From assembly GCA_004295105.1 (NCBI GenBank), contig SHNC01000261.1:1-45528 (forward strand): a stretch of 45,528 nt of DNA. The letters run 5' to 3'. The notes beneath the pieces are model-generated. The model was given only the letters and a program-made list of their open reading frames with translations, did not search any database and was not told where the DNA came from. Every line of letters begins with the position of its first letter. Position 1 is the first letter of the stretch. Shown here in pieces: positions 560-10,408 of this stretch. Origin of the DNA: Betaproteobacteria bacterium (GTDB lineage: Bacteria; Pseudomonadota; Gammaproteobacteria; Burkholderiales; Rhodocyclaceae). A program made the translations under genes and the position numbers.

Positions 560-1237
560 ATGCGCATCCTGCTGGTTGAAGACGACGAAGCGCTGCGCTC
601 CGGGCTCTGCGAGGCGCTGGAGCAGGCCCACTTCGCGGTCGATGCGCTGGGGGCGGCCGAGCCGGCCGAGAACGCGCTGGCGAGCACCACCTACGATCTG
701 GCGATCGTCGACATCGGCCTGCCGGGTATCGATGGCTTCGAGCTGATCCGCCGCGTGCGGCGGCGCGGCATCGGGCTGCCGATGCTGGTGCTGACGGCGC
801 GCGACAGCCTCGAGGACAGGGTGGTGGGGCTGGACCAGGGGGCTGACGACTATCTGGTCAAGCCCTTCGACGTGCCGGAACTGCTCGCGCGCATGCGTGC
901 GCTGATCCGGCGCAGCCGGGCGAGCAGCGGCGCGCAACTGAACTTCGGGCCGCTCGCGCTCGACCTGACCGGGCGCAGTGCGACGCTGGAGGGTGAGGCG
1001 CTGGAACTCACCGGGCGCGAGTGGGGTGTCCTCGAACAGCTCATGCTGGCCACGCCGAGGCTGGTGACGAAGAAGAAGCTCGCCGACAGCCTGAGCCAAT
1101 GGGACAAGGAGATCACGCCCAATGCGATCGAGATCTACGTCTCGCGCCTGCGCGCGAAGCTCGCCGACAGCGGTGTCGTGATCCGGACGCTGCGCGGCAT
1201 CGGCTACCGGCTCGAAGATGCGCCCCGCGACGCTTGA
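560..1237 (+). CDS. OmpR/PhoB-family response regulator
   Basis: A 225-residue two-domain regulator. The receiver domain (about residues 1-115) has the acidic pocket EDD at 7-9, the phospho-acceptor Asp51 in IVDIGLPG, and the LVKPF lysine. The C-terminal winged-helix domain carries the usual ELTGREWGVLEQL and IRTLRGIGYRL segments. It is phosphorylated by a partner kinase and binds DNA as a transcription factor. The kinase gene begins inside its last 20 bases (1218), so the two are translationally linked. The pair resembles the TctD/QseB branch. The target is unknown; the redox genes starting at 2725 on the same strand are an obvious candidate, but that is inference from proximity only. Confidence 0.95.
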   Translation: MRILLVEDDEALRSGLCEALEQAHFAVDALGAAEPAENALASTTYDLAIVDIGLPGIDGFELIRRVRRRGIGLPMLVLTARDSLEDRVVGLDQGADDYLVKPFDVPELLARMRALIRRSRASSGAQLNFGPLALDLTGRSATLEGEALELTGREWGVLEQLMLATPRLVTKKKLADSLSQWDKEITPNAIEIYVSRLRAKLADSGVVIRTLRGIGYRLEDAPRDA

Positions 1238-2618
1238 TCGACTGCTGCCGCGGACGCTGCACGGGCGTCTGCTGGTTTCGCTGGCGGGGTCCCTCATCGC
1301 CCTGCTCGCGATCAGCGTGGTCGCCGACTACCGAACCGCGCTCGGACTTGCCAACGAGGCCTACGACCGCGCCCTCGCCAGCACCGCGATCGCGCTGGCT
1401 TCGCGGCTGGAGCGCGATGCCGACGACGAACGCATCGAGATCGACCTGCCGCCCGCGGCCGAGGCCGTCCTGCGTTCCGATCCGGAGGACAGCGTGCTGT
1501 ACGCGGTGGTCGACGAAGCCGGGCGGCTGGTGGCCGGTGACGCTGCGCTCGCGGCGCTGCCCTGGCCCGTGGCGTCGGCTCAGCCTGCCTACGCCGATGG
1601 GCGGCTCGGCGAGCGGGCGCTGCGCATGGCCAGCTACGCGTATTCGAGTCCCACGCTGCGGGCCACGGTCGTGGTGGCCGAAACCACCGTCAAGCGCGAA
1701 CGCTCGGCGCACGGCATCCTGTCCGCGATCATCTGGCCCAATCTGCTCCTGATCGCGGCCACGCTGGGGCTCGTCTTCGTCGTCGTCCGCTTCGCACTGC
1801 GCCCGCTCGATGTGCTGGGAGAACGCATCGATGCGCGCACGGCCGACGACCTGAGCCCGGTTGCCGATGCCGGCGTGCCGGGCGAGGCGCGTCCCCTGGT
1901 GGCTGCGCTCAATCGCCTGTTGTCCAACCTGGATGTCGCCGGACGGGCGCAGCAGGCCTTTCTGTCGAATGCGGCGCATCAACTGCGTACCCCGCTGGCC
2001 GGCATGCTGATGCAGCTCGAGCTGCTGAACGCTGCGCTGCCCGCGGAGCTGCAGCCGCGCGTGGAGCGCCTGCGCGTGTCGGCGCAGCGGCTGACGCGGC
2101 TCACCAACCAGATGCTCGCGCTGGCGCGCTCGTCGCGCCAGGCGGCGTCCATGGTCGAGGGCCTGCTGCGCCCGCTCGATCTGGCGACGCTGATCGAGGA
2201 GCGGGCGTCCGACTTCGCCGACCGGGCGCTCGCGCGCGGCATCGATCTCGCCTTCGAGCCGGCCAGGGCCAGCGTTCAGGGTTCCGACTGGATGCTGCGC
2301 GAACTGATCTCCAACCTGCTCGACAATGCGATCAAATACACGCCGCCCGGCGGGCACGTCACGCTGCGTTGCGGTGAGGACGGGGCGGGCCATCCGTGGC
2401 TGGAGGTGGAGGACGACGGGCCGGGCATCCCGCCGGCCGACCGCGAGCGCGTGTTCGAGCGTTTCCAGCGCCTGGCCGGCGCCGAGGTGGAAGGGAGCGG
2501 GCTGGGACTGGCCATCGTGCGCGAAGTGGCCGGACGCCATCAGGCGACGGTGACGATCGAGTCGGGCGGCTCGGGTGCGGGTACGCGCATCCGGGTGTGC
2601 TTTCCGGCACGGCGGTAG
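1218..2618 (+). CDS. Sensor histidine kinase, TctE/QseC-like
   Basis: A 466-residue membrane kinase. A first membrane segment lies at about residues 17-36, then a periplasmic sensor region (about 40-165) of the double-Cache-like type seen in TctE kinases. A second membrane segment at about 172-192 leads into a HAMP linker. The H-box LSNAAHQLRTPL has His254 as the phosphorylated residue; the ATP-binding domain shows NLLDNAIKY (N-box), DDGPGIP (G1) and GSGLGLAIV (G2). It overlaps the response regulator by 20 bp. The ligand is not identifiable; TctE-type relatives sense small organic acids, but the periplasmic domain is too variable to transfer that. A 106-bp gap with an inverted repeat separates it from the cytochrome genes. 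Confidence 0.93.
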   Translation: MRPATLDRLLPRTLHGRLLVSLAGSLIALLAISVVADYRTALGLANEAYDRALASTAIALASRLERDADDERIEIDLPPAAEAVLRSDPEDSVLYAVVDEAGRLVAGDAALAALPWPVASAQPAYADGRLGERALRMASYAYSSPTLRATVVVAETTVKRERSAHGILSAIIWPNLLLIAATLGLVFVVVRFALRPLDVLGERIDARTADDLSPVADAGVPGEARPLVAALNRLLSNLDVAGRAQQAFLSNAAHQLRTPLAGMLMQLELLNAALPAELQPRVERLRVSAQRLTRLTNQMLALARSSRQAASMVEGLLRPLDLATLIEERASDFADRALARGIDLAFEPARASVQGSDWMLRELISNLLDNAIKYTPPGGHVTLRCGEDGAGHPWLEVEDDGPGIPPADRERVFERFQRLAGAEVEGSGLGLAIVREVAGRHQATVTIESGGSGAGTRIRVCFPARR

Positions 2619-2684
2619 GAGGAACCAGCAGGGCGCAGCGGGCATGGCGCAGCGGCATCGTCAGGTTATTGAAGGGAAGCCTCC

Positions 2685-2711
2685 GTTAGCGTAGCGGCAC
2701 TTTCCGCTAAC
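2685..2711. promoter_or_regulatory. Nested inverted repeat upstream of cytochrome b561 gene
   Basis: TAGCGG at 2692-2697 pairs with CCGCTA at 2704-2709 around a 6-base loop. The overlapping outer pair GTTAGCG (2685-2691) and CGCTAAC (2705-2711) offers an alternative pairing. It lies 13 bases before the b561 start codon, where an operator or a leader hairpin would act. No regulator can be assigned. Confidence 0.35.
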
Positions 2712-2724
2712 CGGATCCGAGCAG

Positions 2725-3384
2725 ATGCGCACCGCGTTGAAATCGAATTCCCTGCATTCAGATTCGCAGCCGAACCTCGTCCCGCGCCGGCCCGTGGCGA
2801 TCATCGCCCTGCATTGGGGGACGGCGCTCGTCGGCCTGGCCGTCGTCGCGCTGATCCTCGGGCGCGAACTGGCGGATGGCAAGGCGATGCGCGCCCTGCT
2901 GCTGGACGGCCATCGCGCATTCGGTGCGCTGGTGCTGGCGCTGACGCTGGCGCGCGTGGCGGTTCGAATCCGACATCATCCGCTGTCCGAATCGGTCGAC
3001 GCGTCCGCAGCGCACCGGCTTGTCATCGCGGCGATGCATCTTGCGCTCTACGGCCTGCTCGTCGCCGTTCCAGTGCTCGGCTGGGCGCTCACGAATGCGC
3101 ATGGGCAACCGGTGTCAGTGTTCGGCCTGTTCGCCCTGCCGTCCCTCCTCGAGCGTGACTCGGACCTCGCCGACACCCTCGGCGACTTACATGAGACGGC
3201 GGCGTGGTGCCTGGTCGGCGCGGTCGGCCTGCACGTCGCGGCAGCGCTGTGGCACCACTTCGTGCGGCGCGATCCGGTGCTGCTCGCGATGCTGCCGCAT
3301 GGCGACCCGGCGCACCTCAGACGCGCGTCCTCTTCCCCCGATCTCGCCGCCATCCCATCCGAATCAACCGAGGCCTCAACATGA
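2725..3384 (+). CDS. Cytochrome b561 family membrane protein
   Basis: A 219-residue integral membrane protein with four predicted helices (about residues 25-45, 65-85, 95-120 and 155-180). Histidines expected to ligate haem b are visible: ALHWG in helix 1, HRAFG, LHETAAW and LHVAAALWHH near helix 4. Bacterial members of this family pass electrons between quinones or periplasmic donors and partner cytochromes. The stop codon overlaps the next start as ATGA (3381-3384), so it is translationally coupled to the haem-barrel gene, and a soluble cytochrome c follows. This suggests a three-part route: inner membrane b561, periplasmic cytochrome c, outer membrane haem protein. The C-terminal 30 residues are polar and low-complexity. 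Confidence 0.9.
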   Translation: MRTALKSNSLHSDSQPNLVPRRPVAIIALHWGTALVGLAVVALILGRELADGKAMRALLLDGHRAFGALVLALTLARVAVRIRHHPLSESVDASAAHRLVIAAMHLALYGLLVAVPVLGWALTNAHGQPVSVFGLFALPSLLERDSDLADTLGDLHETAAWCLVGAVGLHVAAALWHHFVRRDPVLLAMLPHGDPAHLRRASSSPDLAAIPSESTEAST

Positions 3385-4763
3385 TGAACCAATCGAACTC
3401 CCGCCGTGCCACCGGGCGTCGAGCGCGCCGCCGCACCGCCCTTCTGCTGGCGTCGTCCGCCGCGCTGTGCGGAGGCATGCAGTCGGCCCACGCGGTGCCG
3501 AGCTTCGCGCGCCAGACCGGTCAGGACTGCGCAGCCTGTCACGTCGGCGCCTATGGTCCGCAACTGACACCCTACGGCATGAAGTTCAAGATCGGCGGCT
3601 ACACCGACACCGATGGCAAGGACGGCAAGCTGCCGCTGTCGGCGATGGTTCTGGCGGCCTTCACCCGTACGGCGAAGGATCAGGCCGACCCCCCCGCCGA
3701 CCACACCCATCGCAACGACAACCTCACGCTGGACGAGGCCTCCATCTTTCTCGCCGGACGACTGTCCGACAAGATCGGCGCGTTCGTGCAGGCGACCTAC
3801 GATGGCGTCGAGCAGCGCAGCTCGCTCGACCATGCCGACATCCGTCTCGCGCATACGCTCGATCTGGGCGGCAAGGAGGCGGTGTTCGGGATCTCGGTCA
3901 ACAACAACCCCGGTGTGCAGGATCCCTTCAACACCTTGCCGACCTGGGGCTTTCCGTATGTGGGGCCTGCCGTCGGCTTCGGCGGCGGCGATGCGGCGAC
4001 GCTGTTCAATGGCGGGTTGGAGCACCGCGTGCTCGGGGCGTCGGCGTACGCCTTCCTCGACAACTCGCTGTATGCGGAGGTGGGTACCTACCGCTCGCTG
4101 TCGCCGGCGGTGCAGAGCCGGACCGGGCAAGGGCGCGACGAGGACATCGGGCGACTCGGCGGGGGCACGGCCTACTGGCGCCTGGCCTGGCTGCAGGACT
4201 GGAAGAAACAGAACTTTTCGGCGGGGCTGTTCGGCTTCAATGCCAACGTACAGCCCGATCGTGTTGGCGGCGCGCCGAGCAACAAGTATCACGATCTGGG
4301 TGTCGACGCGTCCTACCAGTTTCTCGGCACCCGCGAGCATGTCGGCACGCTCTACACGAGTTACATCCGCGAACGCCAGACGCGCAACGACCTGATCGCG
4401 AATGGCGAGGCGGACAACCGCAAGGGCACGCTGAACGAGTTCCGCATCAATGCGTCCTACTATTACCGGCAGACCTGGGGCGTGAGCGCGGGTCGCTTCG
4501 CCACCCGCGGCAACCGCGACGCCGCACTCTACGGCGACGGCTATGCGAACGGCTCGCCCGACTCCTCGGGAACCGTCCTGCAGGCGGACTGGACGCCGTG
4601 GGGCAAGGAGGATTCGTGGGCGGCGCCGTGGGCCAACCTGCGCCTCGGTCTGCAGTACACGATGTTCGACAAGTTCAACGGGGCGCGCCGCAACTATGAC
4701 GGCAACGGCCGTGACGCCAAGGACAACAACACCCTGTTCCTGTTCGCATGGACGTCGTTCTGA
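3381..4763 (+). CDS. Fused monohaem cytochrome c / outer-membrane barrel protein, Cyc2-like
   Basis: The start at 3381 is chosen because it overlaps the b561 stop (ATGA) and gives a proper signal peptide: an Arg-rich N-terminus, hydrophobic core at about 19-33, and cleavage after AHA (residue 38). The 460-residue protein then has A-V-P-S-F-A-R-Q-T-G-Q-D-C-A-A-C-H at 38-54, one haem c site (Cys50, Cys53, His54). The rest (about 70-460) is rich in alternating polar/aromatic stretches typical of beta strands, and ends in LFAWTSF with the terminal Phe expected of outer-membrane barrels. A single haem domain joined to a porin is the plan of Cyc2 Fe(II) oxidases; I recall AxPxFARQTGxxCxxCH as their conserved motif, and it matches fully. 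Many uncharacterised proteobacterial relatives share the FARQTG..CxxCH start, so iron oxidation is a hypothesis, not an assignment. Confidence 0.8.
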   Translation: MMNQSNSRRATGRRARRRTALLLASSAALCGGMQSAHAVPSFARQTGQDCAACHVGAYGPQLTPYGMKFKIGGYTDTDGKDGKLPLSAMVLAAFTRTAKDQADPPADHTHRNDNLTLDEASIFLAGRLSDKIGAFVQATYDGVEQRSSLDHADIRLAHTLDLGGKEAVFGISVNNNPGVQDPFNTLPTWGFPYVGPAVGFGGGDAATLFNGGLEHRVLGASAYAFLDNSLYAEVGTYRSLSPAVQSRTGQGRDEDIGRLGGGTAYWRLAWLQDWKKQNFSAGLFGFNANVQPDRVGGAPSNKYHDLGVDASYQFLGTREHVGTLYTSYIRERQTRNDLIANGEADNRKGTLNEFRINASYYYRQTWGVSAGRFATRGNRDAALYGDGYANGSPDSSGTVLQADWTPWGKEDSWAAPWANLRLGLQYTMFDKFNGARRNYDGNGRDAKDNNTLFLFAWTSF

Positions 4764-4774
4764 GGATGGTGGAC

Positions 4775-5170
4775 ATGATGAGTCTCTTCGTTCTGCCCGC
4801 CGCCCGCCGTCTGTCAGCCGCCTGCGTGCTTCCGCTCCTGCTCTCCGCCGCGCCGGTATTCGCTGCCGACCTGCGCCACGGAGAAGACGTCTTCGCGCAG
4901 GAATGCGCCGAATGCCACAGCGTTCGCGAGGGCAAGAACAAGAAGGGGCCGTCGCTGTTCGCCGTCGCCGGCCGCCGGGCCGCCACCGTGTCCGATTTCG
5001 CGTATTCGGACGCGATGCGGCAGGCCGGCATCGTGTGGACGCCGGCGGCGCTCGACGCCTATCTCGCCAACCCGCGCAAGGCCGTGCCCGGCGGCAAGAT
5101 GAAGTACGATGGCCTTGCCGATACGCACGACCGCGAGGATCTGATCGCGTATCTGGCGGGCCTGAAATAA
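4775..5170 (+). CDS. Class I cytochrome c (periplasmic, monohaem)
   Basis: A small exported cytochrome. Possible starts are 4748 (inside the previous gene), 4766 and 4775; 4775 is preferred because GAGG at 4762-4765 sits about 9 bases upstream and the product begins with a compact signal peptide ending PVFA-A (about residue 30). The haem site CAECH is at 44-48 and the likely axial methionine is in GGKMKYDGL near the C-terminus. This is the layout of mitochondrial-type cytochrome c2/c550 proteins, which shuttle electrons in the periplasm. It follows the haem-barrel gene with no gap, making it the probable soluble carrier between that protein and inner-membrane components. Confidence 0.92.
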   Translation: MMSLFVLPAARRLSAACVLPLLLSAAPVFAADLRHGEDVFAQECAECHSVREGKNKKGPSLFAVAGRRAATVSDFAYSDAMRQAGIVWTPAALDAYLANPRKAVPGGKMKYDGLADTHDREDLIAYLAGLK

Positions 5171-5831: not shown

Positions 5832-6158
5832 TCAGCGGGCAGCCTTGGCGTCCGCCTCGCACTTCTTCATGAACGAACTGCGCGCCGCACCGGCGAGCGG
5901 CTTGCCGTTCTTGTCCACCGCCTTCGCCTCGCATCCGGCCTTGCCGCCGGCTTCGGCGTGGCACTTCTTCATGAACGACGCACGCGCCGCGCCGGCCAGC
6001 GGCTTGCCGTTCTTGTCGACGGCACGTGCCTCGCAGGTCGAGTCGGCCGACGGTGTCGCCGCCTGCGGCGGCGTGGCGGGCGTGGCAGGCGCCTGGGCAA
6101 AGGCGATGTTCGCAGCGAAAAGGCTGGTGAGCACGGCGGCGATGAGTCTGGACATCAT
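5832..6158 (-). CDS. PsiF-repeat secreted protein
   Basis: A 108-residue exported protein. A longer frame reaches 6212, but AGGAG ends three bases before the ATG at 6158 and six before the next ATG (6155), and a signal peptide (LIAAVLTSLFAANIAFAQA) follows directly; the true start is therefore 6158 or 6155. After a Pro/Ala/Thr spacer there are two PsiF repeats, each with a Cys, AVDKNGKPLAGAAR, SFMKKC: about residues 41-68 and 76-102. The name comes from the phosphate-starvation-inducible PsiF protein of E. coli, whose molecular role is unknown. Four cysteines could form two disulfides in the periplasm. No pho box was recognised upstream. The two repeats are also near-identical at DNA level, implying recent duplication or gene conversion. 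Confidence 0.85.
   Translation of the reverse strand: MMSRLIAAVLTSLFAANIAFAQAPATPATPPQAATPSADSTCEARAVDKNGKPLAGAARASFMKKCHAEAGGKAGCEAKAVDKNGKPLAGAARSSFMKKCEADAKAAR
5859..6035 (-). repeat. Two direct repeats encoding the PsiF units
   Basis: A 75-bp unit at 5859-5933 recurs at 5961-6035 (offset 102 bp) with only scattered differences. The first 18 bases of each are identical. They encode the two PsiF repeats of the overlapping gene. Confidence 0.8.
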
Positions 6159-6247
6159 GGTCTCCTTCGGGAAATTGCCCTGCGCGCCGCGATGCCGGAT
6201 GGTGCGAGACACGCCAGGGCGGGTGAAGATTGAACTTCGCGTAGACT

Positions 6248-6745: not shown

Positions 6746-8224
6746 TCAGCCGAGCTCGATCGGCACGAAGATGCGGGCGTCGTGGCGCTGGATCAACAAC
6801 GCGACATGCTTGCCTGCACCGGCGAGCTGCTTGCGCAGTTCATCCGCGCTCGTGACCGGTCTGCCATTTACCGCGAGGATCACGTCGCCTTCCTCGATGC
6901 CCGCGCGCGCCGCGGGTCCGCTGGCGTCGAGCACCACCAGGCCACCCCGGGTTTCGGCCTCCTGCTGTTCCTGCGGGCTGAGCGGTCGCACGGCCACACC
7001 CAGGCGTCCGCGGTCGGTCGCCCCCGAATCCTCCGTCGCGACCTGTGCGGGCTGCATCTCGCCCACGGTGACGGTCACCGTGCGCGACTTGCCCTTGTGC
7101 CAGACTTCGAGCGCCACCGACTTGCCCGGCTGCATCGCCGCGACCCTGGGCGGCAACTCGGCGGAGGAGGCGACCGCCTGCCCGTCGAACTTCAGAATCA
7201 CGTCGCCGGCCTCCAGTCCGGCCTTGGCCGCCGGACTGTCCGCTTCCACCCGGCTGACGAGGGCGCCGTGCGCGCCGTCCAGGCCGAAGGATTCGGCCAG
7301 TCCCTGATTGACGTCCTGGATGGCGACGCCGAGGCGGCCGCGGATGACCTTGCCGTGGGCAAGCAACTGTTCCTTCACCTGCGCGGCGACGTTGATCGGG
7401 ATGGCGAACGACAGGCCCTGATAGCCGCCGGACTGGCTGTAGATCTGCGAGTTGATGCCGACGACCTCACCCTTCAGGTTGAGCAGCGGGCCGCCGGAAT
7501 TGCCGGGGTTGATGGCGACGTCGGTCTGGATGAAGGGCACATAGCCTTCATCCGGCAGCGAGCGCGACTTGGCCGATACGATGCCGGCGGTGACGCTGTT
7601 CTCGAAGCCGAAGGGCGAGCCGATCGCCAGGACCCAGTCGCCCACCTTCGTCTCCGACGGGTCGCCGAGCGGCACCGTCGGCAAGTCGTGCGCATCGATC
7701 TTGAGCACTGCGACATCGGTGGGCTTGTCGACACCCAGCACCCTGGCCTTGAATTCGCGCTTGTCGGTCAGTTTCACAGTCACCTGGCTGGCGTCGGCGA
7801 CGACGTGGGCATTGGTCAGGATCACGCCGTCGGCGCTGACGATGAAGCCCGAGCCCATGCCGCGCTTGATCTGTTCGCCCTGCGGAACGCGAAACTGCGG
7901 CCCGAAGCGACGCAGGAAGTCGTAAAAGGGATCGTTCGGGTCGATCTGGCCGAACGGCGAGTTGCCGCGGGCGCTGGTCTTCACCGTGCCTTCGACACTG
8001 ATGTTCACCACCGCCGGGCCATACCGTTCGACGATGCTCTGGAAGTTCGGCAGGGCGACCACGTTCGTCGTCGCGGGCGGCTGCGCCGGCATGGTTGCAG
8101 CCACGGCGGGCTGGCTGGATTCGGCGTGTGCGGTACCGGCGAATCGGGCGCCTTCATAGGCGCCGGCGAAGATGCTGGCGACGGCGGCGGCGAGAATGCT
8201 GAATTTGATTGCCTGAGCTTTCAT
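6746..8224 (-). CDS. HtrA/DegP-family periplasmic serine protease
   Basis: A 492-residue protease-chaperone with a signal peptide (about 1-34, cleavage near THA), a trypsin-like domain with catalytic triad His140 (TNAHVV), Asp170 (TDVAVL) and Ser243 (GNSGGP), and two PDZ domains (about residues 290-380 and 405-490). This is the DegP/DegQ/MucD arrangement; such enzymes degrade or refold damaged envelope proteins. It is the second HtrA in this window; the other (41743-43167) ends the sigma-E operon. This copy lies 77 bp downstream of a kinase gene on the same strand, suggesting control by that two-component system, like CpxR-controlled degP elsewhere (inference). No SsrA or frame disruption is seen; all key residues are intact. 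Confidence 0.95.
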   Translation of the reverse strand: MKAQAIKFSILAAAVASIFAGAYEGARFAGTAHAESSQPAVAATMPAQPPATTNVVALPNFQSIVERYGPAVVNISVEGTVKTSARGNSPFGQIDPNDPFYDFLRRFGPQFRVPQGEQIKRGMGSGFIVSADGVILTNAHVVADASQVTVKLTDKREFKARVLGVDKPTDVAVLKIDAHDLPTVPLGDPSETKVGDWVLAIGSPFGFENSVTAGIVSAKSRSLPDEGYVPFIQTDVAINPGNSGGPLLNLKGEVVGINSQIYSQSGGYQGLSFAIPINVAAQVKEQLLAHGKVIRGRLGVAIQDVNQGLAESFGLDGAHGALVSRVEADSPAAKAGLEAGDVILKFDGQAVASSAELPPRVAAMQPGKSVALEVWHKGKSRTVTVTVGEMQPAQVATEDSGATDRGRLGVAVRPLSPQEQQEAETRGGLVVLDASGPAARAGIEEGDVILAVNGRPVTSADELRKQLAGAGKHVALLIQRHDARIFVPIELG

Positions 8225-8301
8225 GTCGGCCTCCTGGTGCTGGAGCGGGCTGACCGTGCCCGCGACACCCGCAGCGTAGGGGTTGCCGACTTAACGCAAA
8301 C

Positions 8302-9660
8302 TTAAGGGGCGCGTGGGTCGATTCGAGACGCGGATGCGACGGGCGGGAAGCCGACCGCGACGCGCAGGCCGCCCAGCGGCGAGGTGTCGAGAACCAGCCG
8401 GGCGCCGTGGCGTTCGGCAATCCCACGCACGATGGCGAGCCCGAGCCCGCTGCCTGGCTCGTCCTGCCCGGCGCGGCGGTAGAAGCGGTCGAGCACGCGC
8501 TCCCGCTCGTCAGGCGGGATGCCGGGACCACTGTCGTCGACCTCGAGCCAGCAGCGCACGTCCGGCGTGCCGGCATCGCGCAGGCGAACGCCGACGTCGA
8601 TGCGTCCGCCTTCCGGCGTGTAGCGGATGGCGTTGTCGATCAGGTTGCCGACGAGGGTGCGCAGTGCCGCGGCATCGCCGTCGACGACGACTCCGTCGTC
8701 CAGCGTTGCGGCACCGAGGTCCATGTGCCGCCGATCGGCAAGCGCTGCGTGGTCGGCGAGGGCCTGGCGGGCGACCTCCGCCAGCGCGACACGGGTGCGC
8801 GCGGCTTGCGGCCCGGCTCCCGGCTCCTGCCGTGCGAGTGTCAGCAGTTGCTGCACCATGTGTGTCGCGCGCTGCAGTCCGGCACGCAGTTCGCCCAGCG
8901 CGGCACGGCGCGCATCGACATCAGCGGCGCGCTCGCACAACTGAAGCTGGATCTGCAGCGCGGCGAGCGGTGTGCGCAGCTCGTGCGCCGCATCGGCAAC
9001 GAAAGCGCGCTGCGCGGACAGCGCCTGCCCCAGCCGATCGAGCAGATGGTTCAACTCCTGCACCAGGGGCTGCGCCTCGTCGGGGACATGATCGGCGCGC
9101 AACGGCTCGAGCGAGTCCGGGCGGCGCGCGGCGACTTCACGTGTCAGGCGCTCGAGCGGCCGCAGGCCACGACCCACGAGGTACCAGATCAGCGCACCGA
9201 ACAGCGGGATCAGCGCCACGACCGGCATTAGCGTGCGCAACGCGGCGTCGGCGGCCATGCGGCTGCGCACCGACATCGGCTGGGCGACCTGAATCACGCG
9301 GTCGAGCAGCGGGGTCGAGAACACGCGCCAGTTGCCTTCGGTGGTCTTGACAGTGCTGTAGCCGAGCTGCGCGAGCGAGGGCAGGGTGCTGTGCGGTCGC
9401 GACAGATAGAGCTGCACGCCGCTGCGGTCCCAGATCTGGATGACGAAGTCCAGCGATTCCTCCGGTGCCGCCAGGGGGGCCGCCGTCGGGCGGCCGAACT
9501 GCTGGTCGCGCAGCGACAGCGCGAGCTGGCGCAACTGGTAGTCCATCAGGCCGTCGACCTCGGCGCGTGCAGCGATGTAGGTCGCCAGCCCGCCGAGCGC
9601 GAACACCACGACGAGGGCGCCGAGCAGGGACAGGAGCAGCGTGCGACGCAGCGATCTCAT
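8302..9660 (-). CDS. Sensor histidine kinase, QseC/PmrB-like
   Basis: The frame is open further upstream; the start at 9660 is preferred because AGGAAGAGG precedes it and the protein then opens with RSLRRTLLLSLLG, a standard first membrane segment (about 8-30). The 452-residue kinase has a periplasmic sensor region (about 33-142), a second membrane helix (about 145-163), a HAMP linker, the H-box FVADAAHELRTPL with His226, and the ATP-binding boxes NLIDNAIRY, DDSGPGIP and GSGLGLAIV. It sits 85 bp after its response regulator. Alternative start at 9708 would add 16 basic residues. The stimulus is unknown; the downstream HtrA gene suggests an envelope-related one. Confidence 0.93.
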   Translation of the reverse strand: MRSLRRTLLLSLLGALVVVFALGGLATYIAARAEVDGLMDYQLRQLALSLRDQQFGRPTAAPLAAPEESLDFVIQIWDRSGVQLYLSRPHSTLPSLAQLGYSTVKTTEGNWRVFSTPLLDRVIQVAQPMSVRSRMAADAALRTLMPVVALIPLFGALIWYLVGRGLRPLERLTREVAARRPDSLEPLRADHVPDEAQPLVQELNHLLDRLGQALSAQRAFVADAAHELRTPLAALQIQLQLCERAADVDARRAALGELRAGLQRATHMVQQLLTLARQEPGAGPQAARTRVALAEVARQALADHAALADRRHMDLGAATLDDGVVVDGDAAALRTLVGNLIDNAIRYTPEGGRIDVGVRLRDAGTPDVRCWLEVDDSGPGIPPDERERVLDRFYRRAGQDEPGSGLGLAIVRGIAERHGARLVLDTSPLGGLRVAVGFPPVASASRIDPRAP

Positions 9661-9745
9661 CGGCCTCTTCCTGCGGGCGGACAGCATCCTCGCCATGAGC
9701 GACCGCATGGGCATGGCGGGACAGCGGCGACGGAACGGGCGCAGC

Positions 9746-10408
9746 TCATGCCTGCACCGGCAGGTAATAGCCGACGCCGCGCAGATTGCGCACCCACTCG
9801 GCACCCAGCTTGCGTCGCAGCGCGTGGATATGTACTTCGACCGCGTTGCTTTCCACTTCCTCGTCCCAGCCGTACAGGCGTTCTTCGAGTTGAGCGCGCG
9901 AAAGCGGCTTTCCGGGCTGCTCAAGCAGCGCGCAGAGCAGCGAGAATTCGCGTGCCGAGAGGCGAATCGGCTCGCCATGAAGCGTCACCGTGTGCGCGGC
10001 GGGATCGACCTGCAGGGGCCCGAGTGTGATCGTCGGCGCCGCGGCGCCGCGTTGGCGGCGGAGCAGGGCACGCACCCGCGCGCCGAGTTCGTCGAGGTCG
10101 AAGGGCTTGACGAGATAGTCGTCGGCGCCGGCATCGAGACCGCGGACGCGGTCGGCGACCGCGTCGCGGGCGGTGATCACCAGCACCGGCAGCGTATTGC
10201 CGCCGGCGCGCAGGCGCTGCAGCAGCGCGATGCCGTCGCGCCGGGGCAGACCGAGATCGAGCAGCAGCAACTCGTAGGGGTTGTCGGCAACGGCAAGTTC
10301 GGCAGCGACGCCGTCGCGCACCCAGTCGACCGTGTAGCCTTCACCGCGGAGAGCCTGCTGCACGCCGGCACCGATCATCGGGTCGTCTTCGATCAGGAGC
10401 AGGCGCAT
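9746..10408 (-). CDS. OmpR-family response regulator, QseB-like
   Basis: A 220-residue regulator: receiver domain with EDD at 7-9, phospho-acceptor Asp51 (LLLDLGLP) and the LVKPF lysine, then a winged-helix DNA-binding domain ending VRNLRGVGYYL. It is the first gene of a minus-strand set: regulator, kinase, HtrA protease, unknown secreted protein. It is divergent from the exported SRPBCC gene (start 10481), with only 72 bp between the starts, so the two promoters must overlap and may share control. The regulon is not readable from the sequence. Confidence 0.95.
   Translation of the reverse strand: MRLLLIEDDPMIGAGVQQALRGEGYTVDWVRDGVAAELAVADNPYELLLLDLGLPRRDGIALLQRLRAGGNTLPVLVITARDAVADRVRGLDAGADDYLVKPFDLDELGARVRALLRRQRGAAAPTITLGPLQVDPAAHTVTLHGEPIRLSAREFSLLCALLEQPGKPLSRAQLEERLYGWDEEVESNAVEVHIHALRRKLGAEWVRNLRGVGYYLPVQA

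Follow-up and report, generated by a model that had tools for sequence, protein, structure and literature searches.

A cytochrome b561 encoded with a Cyc2-like haem-porin and a cytochrome c in a conserved, apparently regulated gene unit from a Rhodocyclaceae genome

The Cyc2 proteins are fused cytochrome-porins, and include Cyc2 of Acidithiobacillus, Cyc2PV-1 of Mariprofundus and Cyt572 of Leptospirillum (Keffer 2021; PMC8406198). As defined in the passages of that paper on the family, a Cyc2 has AXPXFAR[Q/K][T/Y] five residues upstream of CXXCH, PXL four residues after CXXCH, at least 365 residues with a haem-binding site, blastp similarity (1E-5) to a known Cyc2, and a 16-strand porin barrel after the haem domain. 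Three representatives have biochemical evidence of iron oxidation, and the paper leaves open whether iron is oxidised by the homologs of the many bacteria for which this activity is not known. Described here is a Cyc2-like gene in a stretch of 45,528 nucleotides from a Betaproteobacteria bacterium of the Rhodocyclaceae (assembly GCA_004295105.1, contig SHNC01000261.1), called the window below. The gene (3381..4763, + strand) lies between genes for a cytochrome b561 and a monohaem cytochrome c, behind a two-component system and a candidate promoter. It is real and conserved, and represents a variant of the Cyc2 kind that appears to be regulated.

With the known Cyc2s the window protein shares the motif, the single CxxCH, the N-terminal haem domain and the 16-strand porin (predicted for the window protein), and a cytochrome c gene adjoins it, as in many Cyc2 loci. 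Cyc1 is a di-haem protein (McAllister 2020), whereas the neighbor in the window is a monohaem class I cytochrome, and the window unit adds a b561 and a two-component system to what known Cyc2 loci hold. In the rus operon (cyc2-cyc1-cup-coxBACD-rus; PMC10654088) Cyc2 likewise comes with its own periplasmic carrier, but genes for an oxidase and a copper protein belong to that operon, and the window unit has b561 and no oxidase gene. A b561 as the proposed quinone-active end of an iron-oxidising envelope path has been described as Cytbc in the mto cluster of Gallionellaceae sp. KS (PMC5566968); there it is fused to a di-haem cytochrome c and accompanied by multihaem MtoA/MtoB, whereas the window has Cyc2 and separate genes. 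The two-component system may be likened to RegB/RegA, which controls iron- and sulfur-oxidation genes in A. ferrooxidans (PMC5506826). RegB/RegA is described as global and responsive to redox state; the window has an adjoining 2CSK_N kinase and OmpR-type regulator with what is presumably a box of their own. A b561-Cyc2 operon was not found described in the literature searched; most subscription papers, preprints and supplements lay outside that search and may mention one. Where passages of the Cyc2 literature name b561, they concern the mto-linked fusion and a co-occurrence list, not this operon, and the passages on Cyc2 in PMC10654088, PMC11784278 and PMC13386937 do not describe it.

The haem-porin has 460 residues and one CxxCH, contains the stretch AVPSFARQTGQDCAACH, then PQL, and ends in Phe. 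A sequence-only reading of this DNA had reported an AxPxFARQTGxxCxxCH stretch, a single CxxCH and a terminal Phe, all of which are present. Set against the published definition, the motif reads AVPSFARQT-GQD-CAACH, with three residues intervening here against five published. PQL follows CXXCH by five residues, against four published and three in other relatives, so the spacing between CxxCH and PxL varies; it is two residues longer than in the Cyc2 of the rusticyanin-type operon at locus L211. The N terminus suggests a signal peptide. In an AlphaFold2 model built from 71 sequences (alignment A3, comprising 70 of the 80 named-contig loci described below and the window sequence; mean pLDDT 89.7, pTM 0.85), helices at 40-46, 50-53 and 64-71 surround the haem site and are followed by 16 strands of at least three residues, which is the barrel of suitable size that the earlier reading had proposed to look for. 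A Foldseek search with the model returned mostly porins, the top match being Vibrio OmpT (TM 0.41 by query), with OprP at rank 15 (TM 0.44). The predicted barrel and the signal-like N terminus would place the haem-porin in the outer membrane.

For similarity to a known Cyc2, the comparison made was a single pairwise BLASTP with the L211 protein, which is taken to be a Cyc2 from its rusticyanin-type operon (35% identity, 481 aligned columns, E 1e-80). The L211 operon holds COX2, COX1, CtaA, UbiA-family and copper-protein genes. This comparison and the published motif give no sign against Cyc2 membership. Pfam and NCBIfam were discarded as a route to membership, since no model in either matched the haem-porin at E 0.1 or better, and sequence searches of the PDB with the haem-porin and with alignment A3 returned nothing credible. 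A plasmid collection was also rejected as a source of named Cyc2 references. It gave 10 records, nine of them covering most of the query at 31-43% identity, and its A. ferrooxidans copy equals the Acidiphilium cryptum copy in identity, E-value and bits and is not shown to be the rus-operon Cyc2. A rusticyanin search put one of 369 class genomes (G702) above the cut-off, and that genome has no match to alignment A1, which took 34 of 41 proteins. When four genomes were searched with A1, only G757 had Cyc2-profile matches, one of them 7 kb from a rusticyanin-like gene (137 bits, under the cut-off of 146.7).

The genes for b561, haem-porin and cytochrome c overlap head to tail on the + strand. The b561 gene (2725..3384; 219 residues, PF01292 83 bits) shares an ATGA at 3381-3384 with the haem-porin gene, which starts with ATG at 3381 and has its stop ending at 4763; the coordinates and the coupling are those of the sequence-only reading. 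As that reading also held, the cytochrome c gene follows directly (4748..5170; 140 residues, PF00034 37 bits, one CxxCH). It overlaps the haem-porin gene by 16 nucleotides; several in-frame ATGs leave its precise start uncertain. The three genes are presumably co-transcribed as one unit. Crude dN/dS values, taken as the ratio of two distances against L031, L034, L073 and L081, are 0.11-0.24 for Cyc2, 0.29-0.46 for b561 and 0.18-0.37 for cytochrome c (L034 left out of the last, its synonymous distance being saturated). All three genes look to be under purifying selection. Of the 150 genomes searched, 33, its own included, have a match to the window Cyc2 (P0002) at E 0.001 or better; some of these matches cover the N-terminal part alone. 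Because of these matches and the purifying selection, the three-gene unit is not a product of chance.

P0002 is found in four other genomes of the same genus at 86-87% identity, and a broader Cyc2 profile has matches in 93 of 399 genomes from the order, again counting its own. Among named genome contigs the best 80 loci were kept, a sample biased towards similarity, and in it identities are 79% in Azoarcus sp. L1K30, 68-69% in Zoogloea, 60-64% in Ideonella, 62-63% in Derxia, 52% in Uliginosibacterium gangwonense, and 48-50% in single records named Chromatium, Cellvibrionaceae, Solimonas and Gallionellaceae. These identities would place the window's genome among the betaproteobacteria close to Azoarcus/Zoogloea.

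In a quick tree of 109 rows, 42 rows including the window form a group (SH-aLRT 94, not starred) that is called the subclade here. L072, L074 and L082 were left out as copies of L032, L035 and L038; L115 (ambiguous letters, no CxxCH), L061, L062, L064 and L137 were dropped; and L056-L060 were left out of this first tree. A b561 gene lies within 1.5 kb of Cyc2 on the same strand in 31 of the 42 subclade loci, upstream and adjoining in 30, and a homologous monohaem cytochrome c gene lies near Cyc2 in 39. In L133 (7983-10300, end approximate) the order is Cyc2, cytochrome c, b561, with b561 downstream. L055, whose b561 is on the opposite strand 2.7 kb from Cyc2, is not counted. No such same-strand b561 was found near Cyc2 in the 67 other rows, not all of which have full flanks. 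Because the search profile was derived from this b561 family, strongly diverged b561s beside other Cyc2 genes may have escaped it. The pairing expected by the earlier reading is thus conserved in relatives, patchily and not universally.

A second, more careful tree of 71 rows, from which six near-copies and many rows outside the subclade were left out, places all 25 b561-linked rows in one clade of 35 (99/89), and L103 falls outside the subclade. Since b561 is patchy inside the clade, the linkage has been lost or gained repeatedly. A single origin cannot be claimed, the tree requiring seven label changes, gains or losses, at least five of them forced by starred branches (counted over 44 rows, with 27 rows in no group left out). 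Outside the subclade, a same-strand reading frame with two haem motifs adjoins Cyc2 in 13 of the 32 loci listed (crude gene calls), and five of the six plasmid regions examined have a 'c-type cytochrome' adjoining Cyc2. Within the genus, Cyc2 is present in five of 29 genomes; the same five hold the operon b561 at 63-100% identity, and every other b561 match is at most 39% identical among the matches listed. U. gangwonense, named as having Cyc2-like genes in a passage of PMC5566968, carries two of them, separated by about 1.9 kb (L213, 5391-11354). One stands behind a b561 gene, and the other, of another branch, is followed by a cytochrome c gene (PF00034/PF13442).

The only PDB sequence match of the b561 at E 1 or better is 5OC0, the E. 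coli CybB/superoxide oxidase (E 5.5e-15). The histidines at 5OC0 positions 13, 45, 137 and 151, which we take to be the four haem ligands, are kept in all 31 subclade b561s, and with PF01292 they mark the window protein as a prokaryotic b561. The quinone-site residues R63, H87, H158 and D164 (5OC0 numbering) are also shared with the window protein; the subclade retains them in 30, 29, 31 and 31 of its 31 b561s. The superoxide-collecting charges of the superoxide oxidase are R30, R35, R38, R108 and K134 (PMC11869295); in the window b561 these positions hold R, K, R, H and G, so that two of the five charges of the cationic cluster are gone, and across the subclade they are R or K in 26, 22, 25, 13 and 0 of 31. 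The window b561 differs from CybB also in being operon-linked to c-type cytochromes. Because the quinone-site residues are kept and R108 and K134 are largely lost, the b561, presumably an inner-membrane protein, is probably quinone-reactive and probably not a superoxide oxidase.

The cytochrome c, predicted to be periplasmic, is of the ordinary class I kind, with its best solved match in a CcoP-cytochrome cy chain (97 bits). CxxCH and a Met at 118 are kept in all 39 homologs. Class I cytochromes c are the usual donors to oxidases.

Upstream of the three genes are a two-component system and a candidate promoter that went unmentioned in the sequence-only reading and are a new addition to the picture of the operon. 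The first gene (560..1237, + strand; PF00072 and PF00486) encodes an OmpR-family response regulator resembling PmrA, TctD and QseB, for which the best NCBIfam models, all under their cut-offs, score 222.9 (PmrA), 213.1 (TctD) and 194.9 bits (QseB). The second (1218..2618, + strand) encodes a sensor histidine kinase with a 2CSK_N (TctE-type) sensory domain (PF08521, 110 bits), HisKA and HATPase_c. They are followed at 2660..2675 on the + strand by the box GTCAGG-N4-YGAARG, a putative response-regulator site with half-sites 11 bp apart, and at 2687..2692, 11 bp past the box, by a -10-like element, TAnnnT, whose offset is conserved in relatives. The regulator and kinase genes (560-2618) and the promoter (2660-2692) appear to belong to the operon's unit. 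An inverted repeat, GTTAGCG/CGCTAAC (2685-2711), overlaps and follows the -10-like element; as judged by eye it is absent from the relatives compared.

The box occurs once in the window, against 0.02 expected. Across the scanned loci (3.43 million positions, both strands) it has 23 matches, 22 of them at the operon site and one stray in L126; two of the 22 are in the duplicate records L072 and L074, which leaves 20 of the 42 subclade loci. A same-strand regulator homolog of at least 200 bits, a limit set after the scores were known, also lies upstream of the operon in 20 of the 42. Nineteen of these 20 have the box, L084 having a variant, and L080, whose contig shows the kinase only, has it too. 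The box was found in none of the 19 subclade loci that lack such a regulator; of these, L083, L101 and L103 have less than 1.3 kb upstream, and L099, L100, L104 and L138 have weaker regulator homologs nearby (128-160 bits). L078 and L097 cannot be judged and were left out of the comparison. Three more of the 19, L091, L092 and L095, have a regulator of the 270-bit class about 700 bp upstream whose gene runs on the opposite strand; they are without the strict box and may have a different operator. Three loci without b561 (L035, L037 and L089) have the box 141-223 bp ahead of the Cyc2 gene; because it precedes Cyc2 directly there, the box follows the promoter and not b561.

In 19 of 20 loci a TAnnnT follows the box at a distance of 11 bp; no other offset between 5 and 25 shows it. 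The box alone is unspecific, with eight matches in the window's own genome against two for the reversed control. When the -10 spacing is included the pattern becomes unique in the operon-bearing genomes of the genus, occurring once in each of the five, and it was found in none of the 24 other genus genomes (completeness 68 to 100%); the reversed control gave no match throughout. The box and -10 were first spotted by eye in 17 upstream stretches, so their presence in those 17 is no independent test. The box was found later by pattern in L035, where the eye had missed it, and in L077, L080, L088 and L093; some of these five are close kin of earlier rows. Repeats of 11 bp are usual for sites of OmpR-type regulators, and from this spacing and the co-occurrence we infer that the neighboring regulator binds the box.

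These features suggest the following path. The Cyc2-like haem-porin would take single electrons from a dissolved extracellular donor at the outer membrane. The class I cytochrome c encoded in the same transcript would ferry them through the periplasm and deliver them to terminal oxidases or enzymes of denitrification, the b561 would link the same carrier to the quinone pool, and the adjacent two-component system would turn the operon on through the GTCAGG-N4-YGAARG box. By homology the donor is probably dissolved Fe(II); the reserve on iron use in the sequence-only reading stands. Its path from outer membrane through periplasm to inner membrane is supported for the three proteins by gene order, signature, predicted barrel and the conserved haem and quinone residues. 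The path and its direction are what we infer from these, and an inward flow from Cyc2 to quinone with b561 as the quinone link is given about an even chance. The section from Cyc2 through cytochrome c to an oxidase would run downhill by the usual potentials of class I cytochromes.

Several findings weigh against this inward path. The potential of Cyc2PV-1 is 208 mV (PMC8406198) and that of ubiquinone +90 mV (PMC11869295), so transfer from Cyc2 to quinone through b561 would be uphill. Flow through b561 from the P-side to the N-side also opposes the membrane potential, and b561 fits inward flow only with a lower-potential Cyc2 or donor. Nine subclade loci with at least 860 bp of upstream sequence have no b561 (L035, L037, L089, L099, L100, L101, L103, L106 and L138); two further loci without it have too little upstream sequence (120 bp in L078, 558 bp in L097). 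In L037 (7998-12057) the two-component system, the box and Cyc2 are kept and neither b561 nor a homologous cytochrome c is nearby. The CHFQHFP-type (f24/f37) group, which from the look of its motif we take to be Cluster 1 of the neutrophilic iron oxidisers, lies far from the window protein in the tree, and BLASTP with a CHFQHFP-type protein gave credible similarity in the N-terminal part only (133 columns). The window's genome, 94.7% complete, has no RuBisCO match and so gives no sign of autotrophy fed by iron. As a partner trait RuBisCO was rejected; it is present in 17 of 29 genus genomes and in four of the five that bear the operon, the window's own being the one without, which gives no clear link.

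The same potentials favor flow in the opposite direction, from quinol through b561 and cytochrome c to a Cyc2-like porin that discharges to an extracellular acceptor such as Fe(III), humics or an electrode. The step from quinol (+90 mV) to a haem near +208 mV would be downhill and along the membrane potential. An outward path needs a dedicated quinone protein, and the quinone-site residues of the b561 are kept in 29-31 of 31; by contrast, none of the eight genes scanned in the rusticyanin-type operon L211 matched PF01292. Against this, each published cluster has one Cyc2 backed by biochemical evidence, and these oxidise Fe(II) (PMC8406198); a lone haem also seems ill suited to discharge the electrons of bulk anaerobic respiration. 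A Cyc2 subfamily adapted to release electrons at the outer end of a wire driven by quinol, under the control of its own two-component system, is considered unlikely, though it survives best among the alternatives to inward flow.

The wire may instead run inward from another donor, such as reduced organics, sulfide, Mn(II) or organically chelated Fe(II). To our knowledge the carriers Zoogloea, Ideonella, Derxia and Azoarcus are not classical iron oxidisers, which counts for such a donor, and additional functions of Cyc2 are considered by Keffer et al. (PMC8406198). Nothing positive was found for any donor other than Fe2+, and this reading is doubtful and ranks below outward flow. Least likely is a b561 outside the wire that oxidises superoxide, formed in Fe(II) oxidation near oxygen, into the quinone pool as an anti-oxidant helper; its only solved sequence relative found is the E. 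coli superoxide oxidase, the window protein has a basic residue at three of the five superoxide-collecting positions (R30 as R, R35 as K, R38 as R), and a b561-lipocalin pair acts in lipid-peroxide defence (PMC9113575). Against it, none of the 31 subclade proteins is basic at K134, 13 of them have R or K at R108, where the window protein has His, and the tight coupling to the Cyc2 gene does not call for such a role. The four readings are ranked in this way on the published potentials and on the assignment of iron by homology.

Elsewhere in the window, a DegP/HtrA-type protease with a second OmpR-type two-component system is encoded on the minus strand (6746-10408). Loci L031-L034 and L081 have an opposite-strand two-component system 3-5 kb downstream of the operon. 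A small, secreted-looking protein with PsiF-like repeats (19.7 bits, under the Pfam cut-off of 21) is encoded at 5832-6212.

The operon is a compact and conserved version of Cyc2 with an apparent regulator, promoter and quinone partner of its own. Since its carriers include named isolates, induction, substrate and electron path are directly testable. If electrons flow inward, iron oxidation would be more widespread than thought. If they flow outward, Cyc2 would be more than an oxidase family: a family of iron oxidases would be reversible, and the relatives of Zoogloea, Azoarcus and Ideonella would have a three-gene system for discharging electrons. The finding points to unsuspected electron exchange at the cell surface of ordinary soil and sludge bacteria.

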